41,398 bases of DNA from Candidatus Gastranaerophilales bacterium (GTDB taxonomy: Bacteria; Cyanobacteriota; Vampirovibrionia; Gastranaerophilales; Gastranaerophilaceae), in NCBI GenBank assembly GCA_947624645.1, contig CANQLG010000016.1, positions 1-41,398 on the forward strand, in the 5' to 3' direction. The notes below the pieces were generated by a model. That model was given only the letters and a program-made list of their open reading frames with translations. It was not told where the DNA came from and did no database searches. Shown one piece after another: positions 1,456 to 22,272 of the stretch. The first letter of the stretch is position 1. Each line of letters opens with the position of its first letter. Position numbers and translations under genes: made by a program.

Positions 1456-1539
1456 ACTTTTGTAAACTTTTTTTAAAAACGACTAAAGTAAAAAATTTAA
1501 TGGTCGATATAAAAATTATACGTTTGTGTAATTTAACAT

Positions 1540-1552
1540 GAGGATAATTATG
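1540..1552 (+). promoter_or_regulatory. Ribosome binding site that fixes the autotransporter start at 1550
   Basis: GAGG at 1540-1543 is 6 bases before the ATG at 1550. An in-frame ATG at 1538 overlaps this site and has no Shine-Dalgarno of its own. The GAGGATA pattern recurs before genes at 10720 and 25058, which supports 1550. Confidence 0.75.
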
Positions 1553-4500
1553 AATAATATAATGAAATCCCCAAAAACCTCTCGGGGGGGGGTAAAACGA
1601 CCTAATAATTTATTATTGATTGCAGTCTTTGCAGGGTGCATATCTTTTGGTATTACATCTGCTAATGCTGAAGATTCTAAGATTGAATTTCCATCAGTAC
1701 CTAAAGAATTAAATCAGGGTACTTTAGATTATCTTCATGCTAATAATGTTAAAATGCCGGGGACTGAGGAAGTATACCCCGAAAGCTTTTATACGTTGAC
1801 GGAAATTGAAGTTCCTGACACGTCAAAAATTCCCGACGGAGTAGTAACAAAGTACGAAAAACAACAGATTATAAAATATTTTGACCCCGTAACAGGGCAG
1901 GAAGTTCTCGCAGATAAATTAATACCGGGGGTTAATTATAGACAAGTACATATTTTTGAACTTGTTCCGAAATACTATAAAATGAACTACAAAAATGTTG
2001 AATACGGCAAGGGTAATAGTACAAAATATTTTAAATGGGAAAAGGATGAAAAAGAGGATTATAAACTTCAATTAACAGATGAAAATAATGCTCAAATAAC
2101 CGTGCACTATGATGCAGACAAGAATACAAGAAAAGAAATTGATACCGATACTGACGAAATAAATCAAGAATTTGTAGATTTGTCTTGTGAAGACACAACC
2201 AACGATGCTTTGGGCGGGGCTATATACAACAAATCAACAATACAAAATATAAAAGGCGATTTTATCGGGAATTATACAAAAAGTGAAACACATAATGCGC
2301 TCGGCGGAGCAATAGATAATAATTGGAGCACAATAGGTGATATTACAGGTAATTTCATAGGAAATTATACAAAAAGTGAAACATCTAGTGCGCAAGGCGG
2401 CGCAATCGCTAATATTTTTGGCACAATAGGTAATATTAAAGGTAATTTCATAGGAAATTATACATATAGTGACGGAGAACCTTACTATAACGTTGAAGGT
2501 AAAGAATATAAATATATACTCGGCGGAGCTATTATAAATACCGGTGAGTATGCTAAAACAGGCGATATAGAAGGAATTTTTGCCTATAACTATGCCCGTT
2601 CAAAATATGGTTGGGTAAAAGGCGGTGCTATATCAAACGAAAGCGGTGCAACAATACAAAATATAAAAGGCGATTTTATCGGGAATTATATATATAGTGA
2701 AGACGCTAAGTCTGAAGGCGGCGCAATAGCTAGTGTTTTTGGCACAATAGGTAATATTACGGGTAATTTCATAAAAAATCATACATACTCTAAGAATATT
2801 GAGGCGTACGGCGGAGCTGTTATGAATTACAATTCTACAATAGGCGATATAGAAGGAAATTTTAAAAATAACTATGCCTATTCAGAATCCAGTCATGCAA
2901 GCGGTGGTGCAATTAAAAATGACGCATATGATAATGGCGGCAAATATTCAATAGGCGACATAAAGGGCGATTTTATCGAAAATTATGCGAAAGCAGGTAA
3001 AAATGCAAGCGGCGGCGCTGTTTTTAACGAAAACGATGCGGAAATAGGTAATATAACAGGTGATTTTATTAAAAATTATGCTGAATCAAAAGAGGAGTCA
3101 CATGGCGGCGCTATATATAATTACAAGGGTTCTTCAATCGGTGATATAACAGGTGATTTTATAGACAACTATTCTTATACCACGGGTGATACCTCTCATG
3201 GCGGTGTAATTGATAACCGTGACAGTATAATCGGTAAAATAACAGGTGATTTTATTGGGAACTACGCAAAAAGCACTAAGAATTCATTTGGCGGTGCAAT
3301 TTACAATTATAATACAGATGAAGATTTAGACTCTGAAATCGGTGATTTAACGGGTGATTTTAAGAAGAACTATGTAGAAGCTGGTGACAACGCTATTGGC
3401 GGCGCTATTTATAACCAAGGAGCGAAAATAGGTAATATTGAAGGTGATTTTTCTTCCAATTTCGCCAAAAGTGCATCAGGTCAAGGTCAAGGCGGCGCAA
3501 TAGCCAATACGGGCAAAATAGGAAATATTCACGGTGATTTTACGGATAACACAGCCACTACATACGGCGGCGCTATCTATAATGCAGGAACTATCGGTAA
3601 TAATGATGACAGGGGAATATACAACTCTAATTTCTACGATAATAATGCCGGAGAACATGGCGGTGCAATTTATACTACTACGAATATTAATATTATTGCA
3701 GATAATTTTGACTCTTTGTTTAGAGGAAACTATGTTAATACAGGTGAAAATAAAGATTTTGAAGCAATATATGTAGATGGTGCAGATGGTACAACCTTGA
3801 CATTAAATGCAAAAAATAACGGAACTATTCAGTTTGATGACAAAATAAACGGGACTAATAATTATAGCATTAAAATGCATGGTGATGATTCATCAAGAGT
3901 TATATTTAATAATATAGTGGGCAATGCCAATGCAACATTAAATGATGTAACTCTGCAAATCGGTTTAACGGATGAAAAAAATCTTCAATCTGATGTGTTT
4001 AATACATCAAATCTTGATGTTCAATCAGGATTTGTTGATACGGCAGATGTTAAATACGGAAATTATAGCATTAAACAATTAAAATCAAGTGATGAAGCTG
4101 AATACAGCCTTGACATTGCATTTGACGGAAATAATGGTCAAAGTGATACATTTTCGGTAGGCAGCGGCTCAACAGGTACAATCCAACTTTCTAATTTGGT
4201 TATTAACACTATTAACGGATTTAAAGAAAATGCGGAAGATGAAAAAGAATATTTCATCCAAATAATTAAACAAGCAGATAGAAACGACGATATTCAACTT
4301 TCTATTGACAAAATTCATCATATTACTCAAGCGGAAAATAATATGAACAGCAGAGATATTCTTGCAAAAGAATTTGCAATAGGAACAAAAGACACAACAA
4401 ACGACAGTATTCAAATAGCAGGCTGGAGAGATTCTTTGGCTGCTTGGGCTGAGCTTGATACTGAAGATGAAAAAGTATTTACCTTAAATGGTCATGATAA

Positions 4501-6724
4501 ACAGCTTTTAACCAGAGATGCTAAACTTGTCGGTAAAAATTTTACAATAGAAGGTAAAAACGGTAACGTACTCAATTTAAATGACAAAACACTTTTAGAT
4601 AATATTTCGGATGACCAAAATGTTACACTGTCTGATTTAAGATTATTAAATGCGGATAATATTCAAAATAAAGGCAGTATGACCCTTGATTCCGTTAAGT
4701 TAGAAAACACTTCTAAAATTACAAATAATAATGCATTGACAATTCAAGGTAAAACAAACATTAACGGTACTATTACTTCTGACATTAAAGATAAAGGAGC
4801 TCTTAATTTTAACAGTGCAGACACAAATATTACAGGTAAAGTAGAAAATCAAAATATTACCGGAACCGCTGACAGCACAATAAACCTATACAACAGAAAT
4901 GAGTTTAAAAATAACTCTTTAGACCTTACCGACACTACATTAAATGTATTTGACTTAGGTTCTGATGAATTGCATTTAACTAATTTAGCGGTTAATAACT
5001 CTACCGTAAATATTGACAGCGTTAATGTAGACCTTGCAAATGTAAAAATGGGCAGAATAATTTCCGATAATTATGGAAAAGTAGCTGCACCAAGTATAAA
5101 CATAAAAGATATGAAAGTCTTAAATGATGCAAAGAGCTTGGTTACCGATGTTCTATTTACGGATAGTACAGACTTAGCACAAGGAGTATTCTCTGATGTA
5201 ACAGAAGTAGAAGGTCCGGTATTTAAATATTTGGTATCATATTCTTCTTCTGCTGCCAAAACACGTTCTATAAATAGCGATAGCATAGATGGCGGAATAT
5301 TCAGATTTACCAGAGGAGATGTTAATCCGAATGTTATGGCAGGTTCTGTTGCACAATTAGCAGGCGGATATGCATCAATGATTCAATCTTTGGAATTTGC
5401 ATTTGAACATGCAGATACATTCTCGGCATTACCTCAACGTATAAGACAGGCTAAATCAGATTCAAATAAATATGCAATAAATGAAGCTGACACTAAACTT
5501 TTAGGTTATGCAAATGAATTTAATTCAAAAGGTTTATGGTTTAAACCGTATACATCATTTGAAAGTATACCGATAAAGAACGGCTATGACGTTGATACCG
5601 TTATCTACGGAAGCTACGTAGGCGGAGACAGTGAATTAGTTCACCTTAAAAACGGTTGGGATACTGTTACAAGTGCATATATCGGCTACACAGGCTCAAG
5701 TCAGGCATATCAGGGTAACCATACATATCAAAACGGCATAGTAGGCGGTGTAACTCAAACATTCTACAAAGATAACTTCTATACTGCAATTACGGCATCT
5801 GTTGGTTCATCCATAGGTGAAACATCAACGAAATATGGTGAAGAAGATTTTTCAATGCTGATGGCAGGTGCTGCATCTAAAACGGGCTATAACTTTGAAT
5901 TTAAAGACGGCAGATTTATTATTCAGCCGACATTGTTAATGGCATATACAATGATAAATACATTTGATTATACAAACGCAGCAGGTGTAAACATAAATGC
6001 TGAACCATTACACGCATTGCAAGTTCACCCTTATATTAAATTTGTACAGAATACCGAAAGCGGCTGGCAGCCATATTTATCGGCAGGTTTTGTATATAAT
6101 GTAATGGGTTCAACTCAGATAACGGCTGATGAGTTCACTCTCCCTTCTCTTTCTATTAAACCCTATGCCGAATACGGGCTTGGTATACAAAAATTATGGA
6201 ATGATAAATACACAGGATATCTGCAAGCAATGGTACGCAACGGAGGCAGAAACGGTGTAGCATTCACGGCAGGGTTCAGAATGGCTTTAGGCGATGAAGA
6301 AAAAATTGAAAAAGTTCAAAAAGATAATAATATTAAACCTGTCAATAATGAAATTAAAACGGTTAAGACAGAACCTAACAAGGCTGAAGTTAAAAAAGCT
6401 GACAATAAAGTAAAAGCTGAAAAAGTTCAAGAAGATAATAACCTTAAACCCGTCAATAATGAAATTAAAACGGTTAAGATAGAACCTAACAAGGCTGAAG
6501 TTAAAAAAGTTGACAATAAAGTAAAAACTGAAAAAGTTCAAAAGGTTAAGAAATCAGACAACAAAGTAAAAGTTGCAAAAACTGAGAAAAAGCATCCTTT
6601 ACTTAATAAAATATCAAATTTCTTTAGCGGAAATAACTCTGATGTTCAGCCCACAGGCGAGAAAAAGATTTTTAAACAATTAACTTATTATGAAAGACAA
6701 GCTGTCATTTCAAAAGCTAATTAA
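1550..6724 (+). CDS. Giant autotransporter adhesin with GGAI repeats and a post-barrel tail
   Basis: A 1724-residue outer-membrane autotransporter (type V secretion). Order: a 5' region carrying a G9 tract; signal peptide about residues 17-40 ([10 protein letters not shown] core, cleavage after SANA); a 180-residue N-terminal region; 16 units of about 30 residues with consensus GGAIYN...[14 protein letters not shown] (roughly residues 222-710), expected to form a beta-helix passenger; a long Asn/Asp-rich stalk; an autotransporter beta-barrel at about 1327-1581 (from [10 protein letters not shown] to FRMALGD). Unlike typical autotransporters the protein does not end at the last barrel strand: about 140 Lys/Asn-rich residues follow, with a 37-residue tandem repeat. 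The 3' end overlaps the convergent typA end by 8 bp. Likely surface adhesin; the ligand is unknown. Confidence 0.9.
1584..1592 (+). repeat. G9 homopolymer inside the autotransporter 5' coding region
   Basis: Nine consecutive G after TCTC, decoded here as Arg-Gly-Gly-Val at about codons 12-15, upstream of the signal peptide. With G9 the frame is open for 1724 codons. With G8 the codon after the tract becomes TAA; with G10 the frame meets TAA four codons later. This is the layout of a translational phase-variation switch, currently ON. Confidence 0.9.
2213..3673 (+). repeat. 16 degenerate GGAI coding repeats
   Basis: About 90-bp imperfect units, each opening with GGC-GGN-GC or a close variant (Gly-Gly-Ala) and containing an ATAGGTAATATTA-like core (IGNI) followed by GGTGATTTTAT (GDFI). 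Several units are near-identical over 30 bases or more (around 2245-2275 and 2655-2690; 2410-2465 and 2725-2775), so internal recombination could change repeat number without breaking the frame. Confidence 0.85.
6308..6543 (+). repeat. 111-bp tandem repeat in the autotransporter tail
   Basis: Two full units, 6308-6418 and 6419-6529, differ at only a few positions; a third unit is cut short after EKVQK. Each encodes 37 residues beginning EKVQ and containing NNEIKTVK and PNKAEVKK. Frame is preserved (37 codons), so copy number can vary without loss of the protein. Confidence 0.9.
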
Positions 6725-16170: not shown

Positions 16171-17994
16171 ATGTTTTTATTGAAATTTATAAAATTTTTG
16201 AAATATTTTGGCAAAGGATACGAATTCAAATTATTAAATATGCTTTTTATGGCATTTATGTCAAGCTTATTGGAATTTCTAAGTATAGTACTTGTCTTTC
16301 CGTTTATATTGATTTTGGTAAACCCTTTTAGAGTGGTAAATAACCCAATAGCCAGGATTATTCAACAATACTTTCATATAGACGGAATAAGACCTATGAT
16401 ATTGTTTATCGGCGGATTAATAGCCGGAATTATCATTATTAAAAATATTTACAGTATTTTAATTATATATTGGCAAAATAAAACCATGAGTGAATGGGGA
16501 CTTGAAATAAAAGAAAAAATGCTTACGCTGTTTTTATATGCGCCCTATGAGGCTGATTTACAGCGCGGTGATAACAGAATTATTGACCAAATTACTAAAA
16601 ATGTTGATGAAGTCATAAAATATTTTGTATTTAAAGTTATTTCATTTATTTCTAATACATTTGTAATAATATGTATTTTTGCAATTCTTATATTTTTGCT
16701 GCCGTTATACACTTTATTGGCAATCTTATTCTTTTCTGTCGCAGGCAGTTTGCAAAACGGATTTTTTACAAGATGGAGTTTGAGTCTTGGGGTTAAAAAA
16801 CTTAACCTTACTAATGGTTCTTATAACTCTGTTATTAATAGTTTAAGCTGTATTAAAGATATTAAAATTAACGGATGCCAAAAGTTTTTTTATAATTTTT
16901 ATGATGATATTTCTAAAAAAATGATTCCTTTTGATGAAAAAATAAACCTTATTCCGTTGATTCCCCAATATGTCATAGAAATAATATTTATATTTACAAT
17001 GATAATATTATGCTTGGGAATATTGACCATGTACGGTGAAAATCCATCAAATGTATTGATATCATTTGGTATAATAGCTATCGCCATATACCGTGTTGTT
17101 CCTCAAATATATAAAAATCAAATATATTTAAATTATATAAATTTAACATCCGCAAAGGTGGACAGTTTATTTAAAATATGTGATACATACAGCTTATATA
17201 ATTTTTCAAAAGAAAAAGATACAAAAGAAAGAATGGAATTTAGCTCTAATTTATTGATAAAAGACATGAGTTATTCATATGACAAAAAAGAAACAATACT
17301 AAAGAATATCAATCTTGAAATAAAGAAAGGTGAATTTATAGGAATTGTAGGATTCTCCGGTGCGGGTAAAACTACACTTGTAGATTGCATATTGGGTTTA
17401 TTGGATTATCAGGGAGAAATTTACGTAGATGATGTTCGTTTAAATACGGATAATATGCAAAAATTTAGAAATATAATAGGTTATGTACCTCAAAAAACAT
17501 GTACAATGGAAGGTGATATATATACAAATGTTGCTTGGGGGGTTGAAAGAAAAGATATAGATAAAGAAAAAGTTGATGAAGCACTAAAAACAGCACAATT
17601 GTACGATCAATTGAAACAAACCGAAAACGGATTGGATATAGAATTAAAGTTAGACGGTTCGGGATTATCCGGAGGTCAAATGCAAAGGATAGGTATTGCA
17701 AGGGCATTGTATCGTGAACCTGAAATTATTGTGCTTGATGAGGCAACAGCTAATCTTGATGTTAAAATTGAAAATAAATTGACTGAGATTTTAAATAATT
17801 TAAAAGGTGAAAAAACTATTATTGCAATTGCTCACAGACTTTCTACTCTTGTTAACTGCGACAGAATAGCATATATCAAAGAAGGTAGTTTAATTGATGT
17901 GGGTACTTTCCATGAACTTTGCAATAAATACAAAGACTTTGAAGAAATAGTTAAGCTTTCAAGAATTAAATTGGATGAAGAAAATAATAACTAA
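16171..17994 (+). CDS. ABC exporter, fused permease and ATPase (PglK/MsbA-like)
   Basis: 607 residues: a six-helix transmembrane domain (about 20-330, opening LLNMLFMAFMSSLLEFLSIV) followed by an ATPase domain from about 350. Walker A GFSGAGKTT near 393-401, signature LSGGQMQR near 498-505, Walker B IIVLDEATANLD near 517-528, H-loop AIAHRLS. The N-terminal pattern (SLLEFLSIVLVFPFI) is closest in feel to PglK-type lipid-linked oligosaccharide flippases, so export of a glycolipid or polysaccharide precursor is likely; the substrate is inference. It works as a homodimer in this family. Its last four bases overlap the convergent rqcP stop. Confidence 0.88.
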   Translation: MFLLKFIKFLKYFGKGYEFKLLNMLFMAFMSSLLEFLSIVLVFPFILILVNPFRVVNNPIARIIQQYFHIDGIRPMILFIGGLIAGIIIIKNIYSILIIYWQNKTMSEWGLEIKEKMLTLFLYAPYEADLQRGDNRIIDQITKNVDEVIKYFVFKVISFISNTFVIICIFAILIFLLPLYTLLAILFFSVAGSLQNGFFTRWSLSLGVKKLNLTNGSYNSVINSLSCIKDIKINGCQKFFYNFYDDISKKMIPFDEKINLIPLIPQYVIEIIFIFTMIILCLGILTMYGENPSNVLISFGIIAIAIYRVVPQIYKNQIYLNYINLTSAKVDSLFKICDTYSLYNFSKEKDTKERMEFSSNLLIKDMSYSYDKKETILKNINLEIKKGEFIGIVGFSGAGKTTLVDCILGLLDYQGEIYVDDVRLNTDNMQKFRNIIGYVPQKTCTMEGDIYTNVAWGVERKDIDKEKVDEALKTAQLYDQLKQTENGLDIELKLDGSGLSGGQMQRIGIARALYREPEIIVLDEATANLDVKIENKLTEILNNLKGEKTIIAIAHRLSTLVNCDRIAYIKEGSLIDVGTFHELCNKYKDFEEIVKLSRIKLDEENNN

Positions 17995-18236
17995 CTTATA
18001 ATTTCATATAATTCAGGTGCTTGCTGTATAGAAACATTGCCGGAGGGAATCTTTATAATCTTAACTTTTACTTCACAATCCGCTTGGATAATAGAAATAA
18101 TATCTCCTTCCTTTAATTGTTTTGCGGGTTTGGCAAGAATGCCGTTAACATATACCCTGCCCTGCTCAGAAACTTTATTTGCAACTGTTCTTCGTTTTAT
18201 TAATCTTGATACTTTTAAAAATTTATCTAATCTCAT
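17991..18236 (-). CDS. rqcP: S4-domain RNA-binding protein RqcP (YabO/Hsp15-like)
   Basis: 81 residues, nearly all an S4 domain: MRLDKFLKVSRLIKRRTVAN, then GRVYVNGILAKPAKQLKEGD. The opening is almost the same as Bacillus YabO, which is RqcP, a factor that holds P-site tRNA on stalled 50S subunits so that RqcH can add C-terminal alanine tails. No RqcH is in the window. The ATG is preceded by TATAAT with a 6-base gap and no Shine-Dalgarno, so the mRNA looks leaderless. The 3' end overlaps the ABC exporter by 4 bp. Confidence 0.85.
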   Translation of the reverse strand: MRLDKFLKVSRLIKRRTVANKVSEQGRVYVNGILAKPAKQLKEGDIISIIQADCEVKVKIIKIPSGNVSIQQAPELYEIIS

Positions 18237-18285: not shown

Positions 18286-20574
18286 TTATTTTGAAGCTTT
18301 TTCGAGCTTAGATAGACGTTTTTCAAATTCAGCATTTTGCTGTTTAAGTATTTGATTTTGTTTTTCAAGTTCCGTAATACGTTTATCTAATCCTGTTATT
18401 TTTGCGGTTAAATCTTGAATTTGTGTACAAAGTTCTTTAATTGAATTAACCATAGCGTAGAAGATTTCATCCGTTGTTATTTTATAATATCCGTCTTTAT
18501 CTTTAAATACGGAATTTGGGAATATTTTAATTAACTGCTGCGCAATAACGCCTACATGCGGGGTTTTATCTTTATCTTTTTTATATGTAAAGTTTTTGAC
18601 TTCAAGTGCATTGATTTCTTTAAGTCCGGCTTTACTGTCGCCTGATATATTTTTCAAACGTGCATCTGATGGCGTCATTCTGTCCGACAAATTTTTGTAT
18701 ATAGCTGCCATACCGTCAACAATTGACTTTAAATCATCTTGCAGCTGACCATTTAGTTTAAGATTATATCCTATATTTCCTGAAATATTCTTTTTATTAA
18801 CAGCTGAAAAATACGCTTGCCCATTGCCAAAGTTAATACTATCAGTTCCAATAGTAAGCATAAATGCTTTTTTAGATTTATCTAAAGATAAGAGATAATC
18901 AGAGCCGGATGTATACTCAAATTTTGAGCTTAAATCAGCTAAGAAACTTCCTGTACTGTTTTTTAAACTAACATAATTATCGCTGATTTGAAAACTGGTA
19001 CTCTTTCCATCTTTACTTCTTTCATATAAAAAACCATTATTTTCATCAAGTTTTATAGTAGGCGGAGTACCCTTATTGCTCATTTTAATTTGACCATTAA
19101 GATCAAGCGAATAATCTTTTTTTGAAGTAGTCATACTTACAGTATAATCGGACTCTGCTTTAGCTGTTTTTTGCGGAAAAGTAAAATCAAGAAAATCATT
19201 AAACGATAAATTGACAAGTGCCTCGTCTTTGTTTTTATTACCTGCTTTAATTTTATTATAATCCATTGAGCCGATGACAGCATAATTTTTACCGTCTCTT
19301 GCTAAGCCTGTAAAACTTAAAGAAATACCCGAATTAGTATTTGCTATACCGGAATCACCTCTAAAATGCATATAAACTTCTCCGGTGTAACCTGTTTTTC
19401 CGTTACCATATCCATCAGGAGTTCCGCCATTTGATCTTGCATTTACTTGGAAAATATTAGTTCCTCCGGCATAAGGTCTAATTGAAAATTGTTTTGCATT
19501 AACGATAAGTTCTTTATCATTAGTACTCGTTTTTTGGGTATGACCTTCAATAAGCGGAACAGGAATATCACTGTCACCAATTGAACCGATATAAAGTTCG
19601 TAAGAATCTTTATAACCTTTTTTCCCCATATCAAAATCATTTATACCTGCTCTATTACCTATACAAATATTATAATCGCCGGATTGATGCAAACCGCAAG
19701 CTTCACTTCCTATTGCAATATTACCTTTGTTTGATTTATCAGCATTTAATGACTTTAAACTTTTATAACCGATTGAGATATTATCATCACCCTGCGTTAA
19801 GAATGACATTGCATCACTGCCAATTGCAATGTTTTTATTTCCCGTTTGTAAATGTAATAAAGCTTCAGTACCCAAAGCGGTATTATATGAATTGGGTCTG
19901 TTGTCTTTATTGCCTTGCGAATCTTTTGATTGGTTATCTAAACTGTATAATGATTTATAACCGACAGCAGTATTTCGTGAACCGCTTAAATTAAAAGAAA
20001 GAGTTTTATAACCTAAAGCAGTATTATATTCACCCTCGGTATCTCTTACTAATGAAAAATGCCCAATAGCAGTATTTGCTTCAGTTTCACGTTTACTTTG
20101 AAGTGATCCTATTCCAAATGCAATGTTGTTAGGATCCGCTACAATTCTTCCCGCATATTCTACTTTAGTAGAGTTATTATGCGCAATCGTGTATAAAGAT
20201 ATATGGGAATTTGAAAAATCAGATTCTAACAAATCCGGTATACGTTTTAATAAAACTAACTTATCGCCGTTTGTTGTAAATTGAATTTTACCAAGATCAA
20301 CTTTATCTGTAACATCACTGAAATTGTTAATTAAATCGGTTACGGCAGTATCTTTTAATGGCATTTTATCGTGTCCTATTATGGCACTTTGATTTTTTCC
20401 GTTACCGAAATATGCGTTGTTATTGCCATCACTGCTCCAACGCCAAATATACTCCCTGTTTGCGCCGGATCTTTTTGTTAATGTAGGTATTGCAGCAGAT
20501 AATACTAAGCTAATTATCAACAATGAAACTAATAATTCTGCAAGAGAAAACCCTTTTAATTTTTTATCCATCAT
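18286..20574 (-). CDS. Prepilin-type anchored protein with YadA-like head repeats and S74 intramolecular chaperone
   Basis: 762 residues. A class III/type IV prepilin signal comes first: basic leader, cleavage after Gly8 (KLKG/FSLAELL), Glu at +5 and a hydrophobic helix VSLLIISLVLSAAIPTL. Then residues 150-310 carry seven NTAxG repeats (NTALGYKTL, NTAVGYKSL, NTALGTEAL, NIAIGSDAM and relatives) as in trimeric YadA heads. A beta-rich middle follows. At 636 SDARLKNIS opens a Peptidase_S74/ICA domain (VKNFTYK, HVGVIAQQL, DEIFYAMVNSIKEL), ending in a coiled coil (705-760). S74 domains trimerise fibres and often self-cleave at the conserved Ser, present here. The start at 20574 overlaps the dciA stop (ATGA); the ATG at 20589 lies further inside dciA. 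Confidence 0.88.
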   Translation of the reverse strand: MMDKKLKGFSLAELLVSLLIISLVLSAAIPTLTKRSGANREYIWRWSSDGNNNAYFGNGKNQSAIIGHDKMPLKDTAVTDLINNFSDVTDKVDLGKIQFTTNGDKLVLLKRIPDLLESDFSNSHISLYTIAHNNSTKVEYAGRIVADPNNIAFGIGSLQSKRETEANTAIGHFSLVRDTEGEYNTALGYKTLSFNLSGSRNTAVGYKSLYSLDNQSKDSQGNKDNRPNSYNTALGTEALLHLQTGNKNIAIGSDAMSFLTQGDDNISIGYKSLKSLNADKSNKGNIAIGSEACGLHQSGDYNICIGNRAGINDFDMGKKGYKDSYELYIGSIGDSDIPVPLIEGHTQKTSTNDKELIVNAKQFSIRPYAGGTNIFQVNARSNGGTPDGYGNGKTGYTGEVYMHFRGDSGIANTNSGISLSFTGLARDGKNYAVIGSMDYNKIKAGNKNKDEALVNLSFNDFLDFTFPQKTAKAESDYTVSMTTSKKDYSLDLNGQIKMSNKGTPPTIKLDENNGFLYERSKDGKSTSFQISDNYVSLKNSTGSFLADLSSKFEYTSGSDYLLSLDKSKKAFMLTIGTDSINFGNGQAYFSAVNKKNISGNIGYNLKLNGQLQDDLKSIVDGMAAIYKNLSDRMTPSDARLKNISGDSKAGLKEINALEVKNFTYKKDKDKTPHVGVIAQQLIKIFPNSVFKDKDGYYKITTDEIFYAMVNSIKELCTQIQDLTAKITGLDKRITELEKQNQILKQQNAEFEKRLSKLEKASK

Positions 20575-20903
20575 TTTTCTTCTTTCCATCTTTTATAGTT
20601 GAACTTAATATCCTTTATAATTATTCCCAAATTTTGTACGTTTTTATTCATATATTTAAGTAAATTTTGCTTTTCTAAATATAATTCATTAGCTACAAAC
20701 GAATCAGAACATACTATTGTTAATATATTGTTCTCCGAGATATCAATAACTTTTGAAAAAGTTGATATTTTATCACCTGCAACTTGAGTCCAAAATTTCT
20801 TTATTTCACCTAAAATTTTTTCATCATTCTGATTATATTTGAAATCCAGTTCTTTGATGACGTCTTCAATAAGCTCAAAATTGGAATTGTTTAACTTTTT
20901 CAT
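20571..20903 (-). CDS. dciA: DUF721/DciA-family protein, probable replicative helicase loader
   Basis: 110 residues. DciA is the ancestral loader of the DnaB helicase in bacteria without DnaC or DnaI, cyanobacteria included. The DUF721 core is seen: FWTQVAGDKISTFSKVI, ILTIVCSDSFVANELYL and QNLLKYMNKNV. The N-terminal 30 residues are a helical stretch and the usual longer C-terminal extension is missing. The promoter is inside the 3' end of the upstream kinase gene and appears leaderless. The stop overlaps the prepilin/S74 start by 4 bases, so the two are co-translated, an odd pairing of replication and surface genes. Confidence 0.8.
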   Translation of the reverse strand: MKKLNNSNFELIEDVIKELDFKYNQNDEKILGEIKKFWTQVAGDKISTFSKVIDISENNILTIVCSDSFVANELYLEKQNLLKYMNKNVQNLGIIIKDIKFNYKRWKEEK

Positions 20904-20910
20904 ACTAATA

Positions 20911-20939
20911 ATTATATTATTTTTTTTAGATTAGCTCAA
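20911..20939 (-). promoter_or_regulatory. Promoter of dciA inside the kinase 3' end, leaderless
   Basis: On the minus strand TTGAGC (20939-20934), a 17-base spacer, then TATAAT (20916-20911), with 7 bases to the ATG. The -35 box overlaps the last codons of the upstream kinase gene. Expected start of transcription is at or next to the ATG. Confidence 0.65.
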
Positions 20940-21588
20940 GAATATTTTTAACGTGCGAGATAATTTTTTTATGGATATCTTTAGGACTTAAAGTACCGTC
21001 AATAGATATAAACCCATATTCTTTAATCATTTTATGATATTCTTCAAGGCATTTCCCTTGATAAATTTGAAAACTTTTATAAAAATCATTGCTTAAACCT
21101 ATGTCACGACCTGATTCCCAATAATCAAGCCCGGTTGTACCGATAATTCTTTTTAATAAAATTTCAACCGGTACATCAAGATAAAAAACCATATCAGGCT
21201 CTGGTGCATAATCATAAAGATTTTTCAGCCATTCAATATTATGCCCTCTGACCACATCTCTTGCATATGCAGTATATATATATCTGTCCAAAATTACGAC
21301 AAATCCTGCTTTTAATGCAGGAATAATAACCTGCTCTAATCTGTCAGCAAAATCTGCCGCATATAAAAGCGAAAATGTTGTTGCATTAAGTAAATTCCTG
21401 TCTTTTGCATCATTTATGGCATCTGCTATGAATTTTGATGTTTTCCATTCACTTACCATTACTCCGTATGATTGGTCTTCAATCCAACGTTTTAATTTTT
21501 CAATTTGAGTGGATTTGCCTGAACCATCGGTTCCTTCTATTACTATTAATAAGCCATCATAGCCGTTTTTTGATTTATATTTTGTCAT
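20926..21588 (-). CDS. Thymidylate-kinase-like P-loop kinase, copy A
   Basis: 220 residues. P-loop EGTDGSGKSTQIEKL near 18-32, a DRYIYTAYARD segment in place of the family's DR-Y/F-x-D-S, and a C-terminal lid region. The TREPGG loop that contacts dTMP in classical Tmk is replaced by SEWKTSKF. It shares about half its residues with the gene just upstream, from which it follows directly (TAAATG). Nucleoside monophosphate kinase activity is likely; whether dTMP is the substrate is uncertain. Confidence 0.78.
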   Translation of the reverse strand: MTKYKSKNGYDGLLIVIEGTDGSGKSTQIEKLKRWIEDQSYGVMVSEWKTSKFIADAINDAKDRNLLNATTFSLLYAADFADRLEQVIIPALKAGFVVILDRYIYTAYARDVVRGHNIEWLKNLYDYAPEPDMVFYLDVPVEILLKRIIGTTGLDYWESGRDIGLSNDFYKSFQIYQGKCLEEYHKMIKEYGFISIDGTLSPKDIHKKIISHVKNILELI

Positions 21589-22272
21589 TTACAGCTCTAT
21601 TCCCTTTTTCTTCAGTATTTTTTTTATTTCTTCTCTGAAGAACAATTGTTTTTTATGAATACTTTCTTCCGCATCAATTTCAACAAGCCCAAATTCATTT
21701 ATCATTTGTTTGTATTCGTCATTAACTCTTTTTTGGAAAATTTTATAACTTTCGTATGGGTCACTGCTTATCTTTAAATCCATGCCTGCTTCATAAAATT
21801 TAGGTGCCCGATTGGCACATATTCTTTCCAGCGAAACATCTTCAGATACCCTAAAATAAAGAGTCAAATCAGGTTTAACGGCAAATCCGTATACTTTTCG
21901 CACCCAATCTCTATCAACGCCCCTTGCTACATCACGTGCAAATGCAGTATAAACGTATCTGTCAGCCAAAACTATAAATCCTGCTTTTAGTGCGGGAATA
22001 ATGACCTGTTCTAATCTGTCAGCAAAATCAACGGCATGTAATAATGAAAATGTTCTGGGGCTCAATAAGTTTTTCTTTTTTGCCAATTTGGTAGTTTGCG
22101 AAATCAAATCAGATGAATTCCATTCCGTAAATATTACGTCTTGTTTGAGAGATTTTAGCCAGTCCCTAAGTATGGCAAGCTGTGTTGACTTGCCTGATCC
22201 GTCTATCCCTTCTACACATATAAGAGTACCTGCTAAATTATGAGGTTCATTTAATCTGGATTTGTACTTCAT
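21589..22272 (-). CDS. Thymidylate-kinase-like P-loop kinase, copy B
   Basis: 227 residues, paralogue of the next gene. P-loop EGIDGSGKSTQLAIL, ADFADRLEQ-type segment VDFADRLEQVIIPALKAGF identical in both copies, and DRYVYTAFARDVARG. TREPGG is replaced by TEWNSSDL. An AAGG site precedes the ATG. The two copies form a two-gene operon; one may have a different substrate or they may act as a heterodimer, both being inference. No classical tmk is seen in the window. Confidence 0.78.
   Translation of the reverse strand: MKYKSRLNEPHNLAGTLICVEGIDGSGKSTQLAILRDWLKSLKQDVIFTEWNSSDLISQTTKLAKKKNLLSPRTFSLLHAVDFADRLEQVIIPALKAGFIVLADRYVYTAFARDVARGVDRDWVRKVYGFAVKPDLTLYFRVSEDVSLERICANRAPKFYEAGMDLKISSDPYESYKIFQKRVNDEYKQMINEFGLVEIDAEESIHKKQLFFREEIKKILKKKGIEL

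Follow-up and report, generated by a model that had tools for sequence, protein, structure and literature searches.

In the cases that have been studied, S74 domains trimerize and cut before a serine with the aid of a lysine (PMC8326128, PMC10769870). The dyad has been proven in MyRF (S587/K592), in endoNF (S911/K916) and, for S782, in the Bdellovibrio protein Bd3182 (PMC8326128, PMC10769870). Bdellovibrio bears such domains on its MAT fibres, which are cell-encoded and have a constant N-terminal part and a variable body; 13 members carry a C-terminal S74 domain with SDxxxK and proven self-cleavage (PMC10769870). Large minor pilins, for their part, can be trimeric and located at the pilus tip, as is the case for CofB and TcpB (PMC5207764, PMC9565799).

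The only publication we found that joins an S74 or tail-fibre domain with a pilin is a survey of modular pilins, in which the pair IPR012902-IPR030392 (prepilin and S74) appears among the architectures and is read as a peptidase (Raynaud et al. 2021, PMC8179133). The text of the survey gives no organism for this pair and does not mention Gastranaerophilales. It is a database listing and does not interpret the pair as a trimeric fibre, nor does it describe head repeats, fixation across a lineage or a paralogue repertoire; these points, the last in the form of paralogues with constant ends and a variable middle, are what the present analysis adds to a pair already listed. The fusion joins self-cleaving trimeric fibres of the phage type with type IV filaments, two display systems that have mostly been studied apart.

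Anatomy of the window protein

The window, meaning the whole stretch of 41,398 nucleotides that we analyzed, contains an uninterrupted frame on the minus strand that runs from 20589 to 18286 and encodes 767 amino acids. One chain carries a class III prepilin signal, nine NTAxG repeats, a Peptidase_S74 domain with a Ser-Lys dyad, and a coiled coil (Table 1). Residues are numbered from the upstream ATG (20589). Translation more likely starts at the ATG at 20574, given its ATGA overlap with the dciA stop, the purine-rich GGAAAGAAG upstream of it, and the leader that it would open. A structure model of the full-length protein is confident only in the N-terminal helix, the repeats and the S74 domain, with low confidence elsewhere.

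Table 1. Features of the prepilin-S74 gene and its two neighbours in the window.
Feature	Residues	Position	Strand	Remarks
Prepilin / NTAxG-repeat / S74 gene		18286..20574	-	Stop codon included; upstream ATG at 20589
Class III leader MMDKKLKG		20551..20574	-	Predicted cleavage after Gly (residue 13; Gly8 from ATG at 20574)
Hydrophobic pilin helix	14-38	20476..20550	-	N_methyl match; model helix; relatives aligned; Glu at mature position 5
NTAxG head-like repeats	155-323	19621..20127	-	Nine motifs; PHROG matches; confident beta-solenoid in model
Variable middle	346-610	18760..19554	-	Low pLDDT; divergent part among paralogues
Peptidase_S74	641-706	18472..18669	-	Ser641 codon 18667-18669; Lys646 codon 18652-18654
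C-terminal coiled coil	707-767	18289..18471	-	60-residue helix in model; heptad pattern
dciA, upstream neighbour		20571..20903	-	ATGA stop/start overlap; conserved synteny
S4-domain gene, downstream neighbour		17991..18236	-	Conserved synteny

Like the modular pilins of the survey (PMC8179133), the protein combines a prepilin signal with a large module at its C-terminal end. Its N terminus has the class III layout, with a leader that ends in Gly before a hydrophobic stretch of about 20 residues with Glu at +5; the sequence that follows MMDKKLKG is FSLAELL, and N_methyl (PF07963) matches residues 9-34 with 25.4 bits against a Pfam cut-off of 21.2. Glu5 and a GF(S/T)LAE core are conserved throughout the S74 ORFs that carry the signal. 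The predicted helix stops about 25 residues past the cleavage site, the stretch beyond lacks a confident model, and no pilin beta-sheet domain was recognizable after the helix, where model confidence is low. The ordinary prepilins of the same genome continue into a longer amphipathic stretch, which makes this an unusual pilin. The earlier note had gone further in setting it apart from standard minor pilins; since modular pilins are known and the prepilin-S74 pair has been listed (PMC8179133), the protein is less unprecedented than that note implied. CofB and TcpB are large minor pilins that likewise keep Glu5, and they form homotrimers through C-terminal beta-rich domains, but they possess a pilin domain and tips of the H-type-lectin-like kind, and lack both an S74 chaperone and self-trimming.

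The short helix and the lack of a recognizable pilin beta-sheet domain make incorporation into a filament uncertain. The helix might be a mere membrane anchor processed by prepilin peptidase, with the S74-processed trimeric fibre staying in the inner membrane or exiting alone, never borne on a filament. That the genes are scattered, mostly among housekeeping genes and outside pilus operons, would also fit an anchor. We nevertheless consider this unlikely, because the Glu5 and GF(S/T)LAE core is kept and Glu5 has a docking function in pilins (TcpB Glu5, PMC5207764), and because in one family a fourth prepilin gene, this one lacking S74, comes after three S74 pilin genes.

At the other end of the protein, the Peptidase_S74 profile matches residues 641-694 with 49.6 bits (Pfam cut-off 22), and the predicted catalytic dyad, Ser641 and Lys646, has the SDxxxK form found in 109/109 S74 domains of the order. 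A model of the S74 module, built from an alignment that included phage relatives, reached a pLDDT of 95.7. Its best structural match is the MyRF ICA (7dc3; Z 8.5, rmsd 2.6 over 109 residues), and further matches are the endosialidase chaperone 3gw6 (6.7), 3gud (5.8) and the T5 tail fibre 4uw8 (5.5); all four belong to one domain family. The heptad pattern of the coiled coil was equalled by none of 5000 shuffles. Phage S74 tail fibres and the MyRF ICA have the fold, the Ser-Lys dyad and the helical coil at the C terminus in common with the window protein, but they lack a pilin signal and have a virion or nuclear function. The Bdellovibrio MAT fibres likewise have S74 with SDxxxK at the C-terminal end; they begin, however, with an ordinary signal peptide, followed by a conserved beta-rich MAT domain, and in place of that signal peptide the window protein has a class III prepilin signal. 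A proline precedes the scissile bond; we considered whether it bars cutting and rejected this, since such a proline is shared by 6 of the 109 domains of the order, the window's included, and by 9 of 95 viral domains.

The survey's reading of the domain in IPR012902-IPR030392 as a predicted peptidase hints that it might act on other proteins (PMC8179133). Such a role is highly improbable, given that characterized S74 domains cut themselves, within the trimer (PMC8326128, PMC10769870), and that the domain here lies C-terminal to a fibre and is accompanied by a coiled coil of the self-processing kind. In modular pilins, S74 is suggested to be a folding and maturation device rather than a peptidase on other proteins.

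Nine N[TI][ASC]xG motifs lie within residues 155-307, mostly 17 residues apart, whereas 20,000 shuffled sequences of the protein averaged 0.03 motifs, with no more than 2 in any. The repeats match the phage virion and tailspike families phrog_6002 (8e-25) and phrog_4636 (3e-22), and some phages also pair NTAxG repeats with S74. VIA-align with the full model returned many unrelated beta-helix enzymes over the repeats, matches that show a solenoid arrangement in the model and no more. The earlier description of the repeats as YadA-like needs one correction: Pfam YadA_head (PF05658) has no match in the window protein even at E<=1; it is in paralogues of relatives that the family matches strongly (5e-28, 4e-36), and several relatives combine N_methyl, YadA_head and S74 in a single chain. 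YadA-type autotransporters have a C-terminal anchor barrel, whereas the window protein ends in S74 and a coiled coil, and no membrane anchor family in Pfam matched its C terminus. Pfam also returned no lectin family for the protein, whose residues 346-610 have no confident model.

Taken together, these results bear out the anatomy that the earlier note had proposed, namely an ORF at 18286-20574, a prepilin signal predicted to be cut behind Gly8, repeats of a head-like type, and an S74 domain with a predicted catalytic Ser, here joined by its Lys; the architecture is conserved across the order. That note had also called for a count of similar fusions: there is one in this genome, and relatives have up to a dozen S74 domains.

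Distribution and genomic setting

The nearest named relatives belong to Candidatus Gastranaerophilales, a non-photosynthetic group that is sister to the photosynthetic Cyanobacteria (see also PMC5877343). The loci compared here came mostly from S74-family searches in the phylum and class, which are blind to the N terminus, and in a minority of cases from a search with the full-length protein in the family. S74 was present in 156/382 genomes of the class sample. The order contributed 112 S74 ORFs, 8 of them cut by a contig edge and 104 with their 5' region. A class III signal is in frame in 101 of these 104, and in another frame just upstream in the remaining 3. By comparison, the signal was found in 0/14 S74 ORFs outside the order (11 from other Cyanobacteria and 3 from other families of the class) and in 0/92 viral S74 ORFs. 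Judged by this distribution, the prepilin-S74 fusion is an old, kept feature of the order Gastranaerophilales.

The three loci with the signal in another frame (L117, L136, L193) look like frameshifted copies. In these split genes, phase variation, decay and sequencing error are indistinguishable.

In the window, dciA and the S4-domain gene flank the gene, with two thymidylate kinase genes beyond dciA. In close relatives dciA is likewise the neighbour at nine further loci, and in a second genus at two (L170 and L171); the S4 gene recurs in 6 of the nine close-relative loci and in both L170 and L171. Since the encoded protein is similar to phage tail fibres in its middle and C-terminal parts, the gene might be a prophage tail-fibre gene or an assembly chimera. 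We regard this as having almost no chance of being correct, and as ruled out by the housekeeping neighbours with their conserved synteny and by the distribution across order and viruses. No phage genes were found among the neighbours tested around the window gene. Phage records match the repeats and S74 only, none covering 80% of the protein; no close full-length relatives occurred in viral contigs, and plasmid records gave two weak matches.

The adjacent thymidylate kinase genes (window 20926-21588 and 21589-22272) are both conserved in relatives, at 86-96% identity, which indicates that this duplication is old and kept. Elsewhere in the window, a 1728-amino-acid ORF (1538-6724) has no Pfam match at E<=0.001.

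Paralogue repertoire and proposed working

The genome encodes both a prepilin peptidase and an assembly machine: T2SSC-like, secretin, T2SSE and T2SSF genes lie in a row, and one prepilin peptidase is encoded elsewhere. One secretin was found in 20/20 tested genomes with S74 pilins, and one detectable prepilin peptidase in 19/20, so that a single machine appears to serve these proteins. The T2SSC-like gene in the secretin operon would suit a periplasmic T2SS pseudopilin that aids substrate export, its fibre part binding the substrate or the secretin. We consider such a pump component improbable, because up to a dozen copies occur, varying among themselves and carrying head-type repeats; such a repertoire resembles surface adhesins and not a conserved pump part.

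Genomes with several copies show how this repertoire is built. According to both protein identities and DNA profile, their paralogues have near-constant ends and a variable middle; eight scattered paralogues in one genome (G340) have mean identities of 96% in the prepilin helix, 34% in the middle and 94% in S74. Such a pattern is expected of fibres that share an anchor and a chaperone but differ in their binding parts, and is in keeping with a repertoire of binding specificities.

Overall, a trimeric fibre borne on a pilus tip or pseudopilus, as first proposed in the earlier note, is the best reading of these data. The window protein is probably a modular minor pilin that bears a phage-type trimeric fibre; from the studied S74 domains and the trimeric tip minor pilins, we infer that it forms a trimer, trims itself at Ser641 and is displayed. 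In this proposed series of steps, the hydrophobic helix would lie in the inner membrane with the remainder in the periplasm, and three chains would assemble via the coiled coil and the S74 domain. The folded S74 domain would cut before Ser641 and then leave, and the prepilin peptidase would take off MMDKKLKG. The cell's single secretin/GspE/GspF machine could then export the trimer on the tip of a pilus or pseudopilus, and the variable middle would serve there as an adhesin.

For the order as a whole, the analysis suggests that varied three-stranded adhesive fibres are displayed via a pilus or secretion machine. A broader and more tentative possibility is that the order has recruited its T4P/T2SS machine to display a repertoire of phage-like trimeric fibres that mature themselves, the prepilin and S74 ends staying constant and the adhesive middles being interchangeable; the products of the triplets described below might form hetero-trimers. 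If the minor-pilin reading is right, it would offer a simple way for a pilus to bear long trimeric adhesins, and would explain many different surface binders in uncultured gut Gastranaerophilales.

Adjacent triplets of prepilin-S74 genes occur in several lineages (L156, L157, L158, L285 and L107), and hetero-trimers from such triplets are conceivable. One of the triplets is the set with the additional S74-less prepilin gene mentioned above. A different arrangement is seen in one genus (L098-L101, L104, L112, L145, L195), in which two tandem prepilin-S74 genes and one opposed gene are clustered; in both loci of this genus that were inspected, a conserved gene lies between the clustered prepilin-S74 genes. 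Several contigs start in or just before S74 (G192:C4, G192:C10, G188:C16, G053:C1 and similar ends), as would be expected of an assembly interrupted at near-identical S74 copies.
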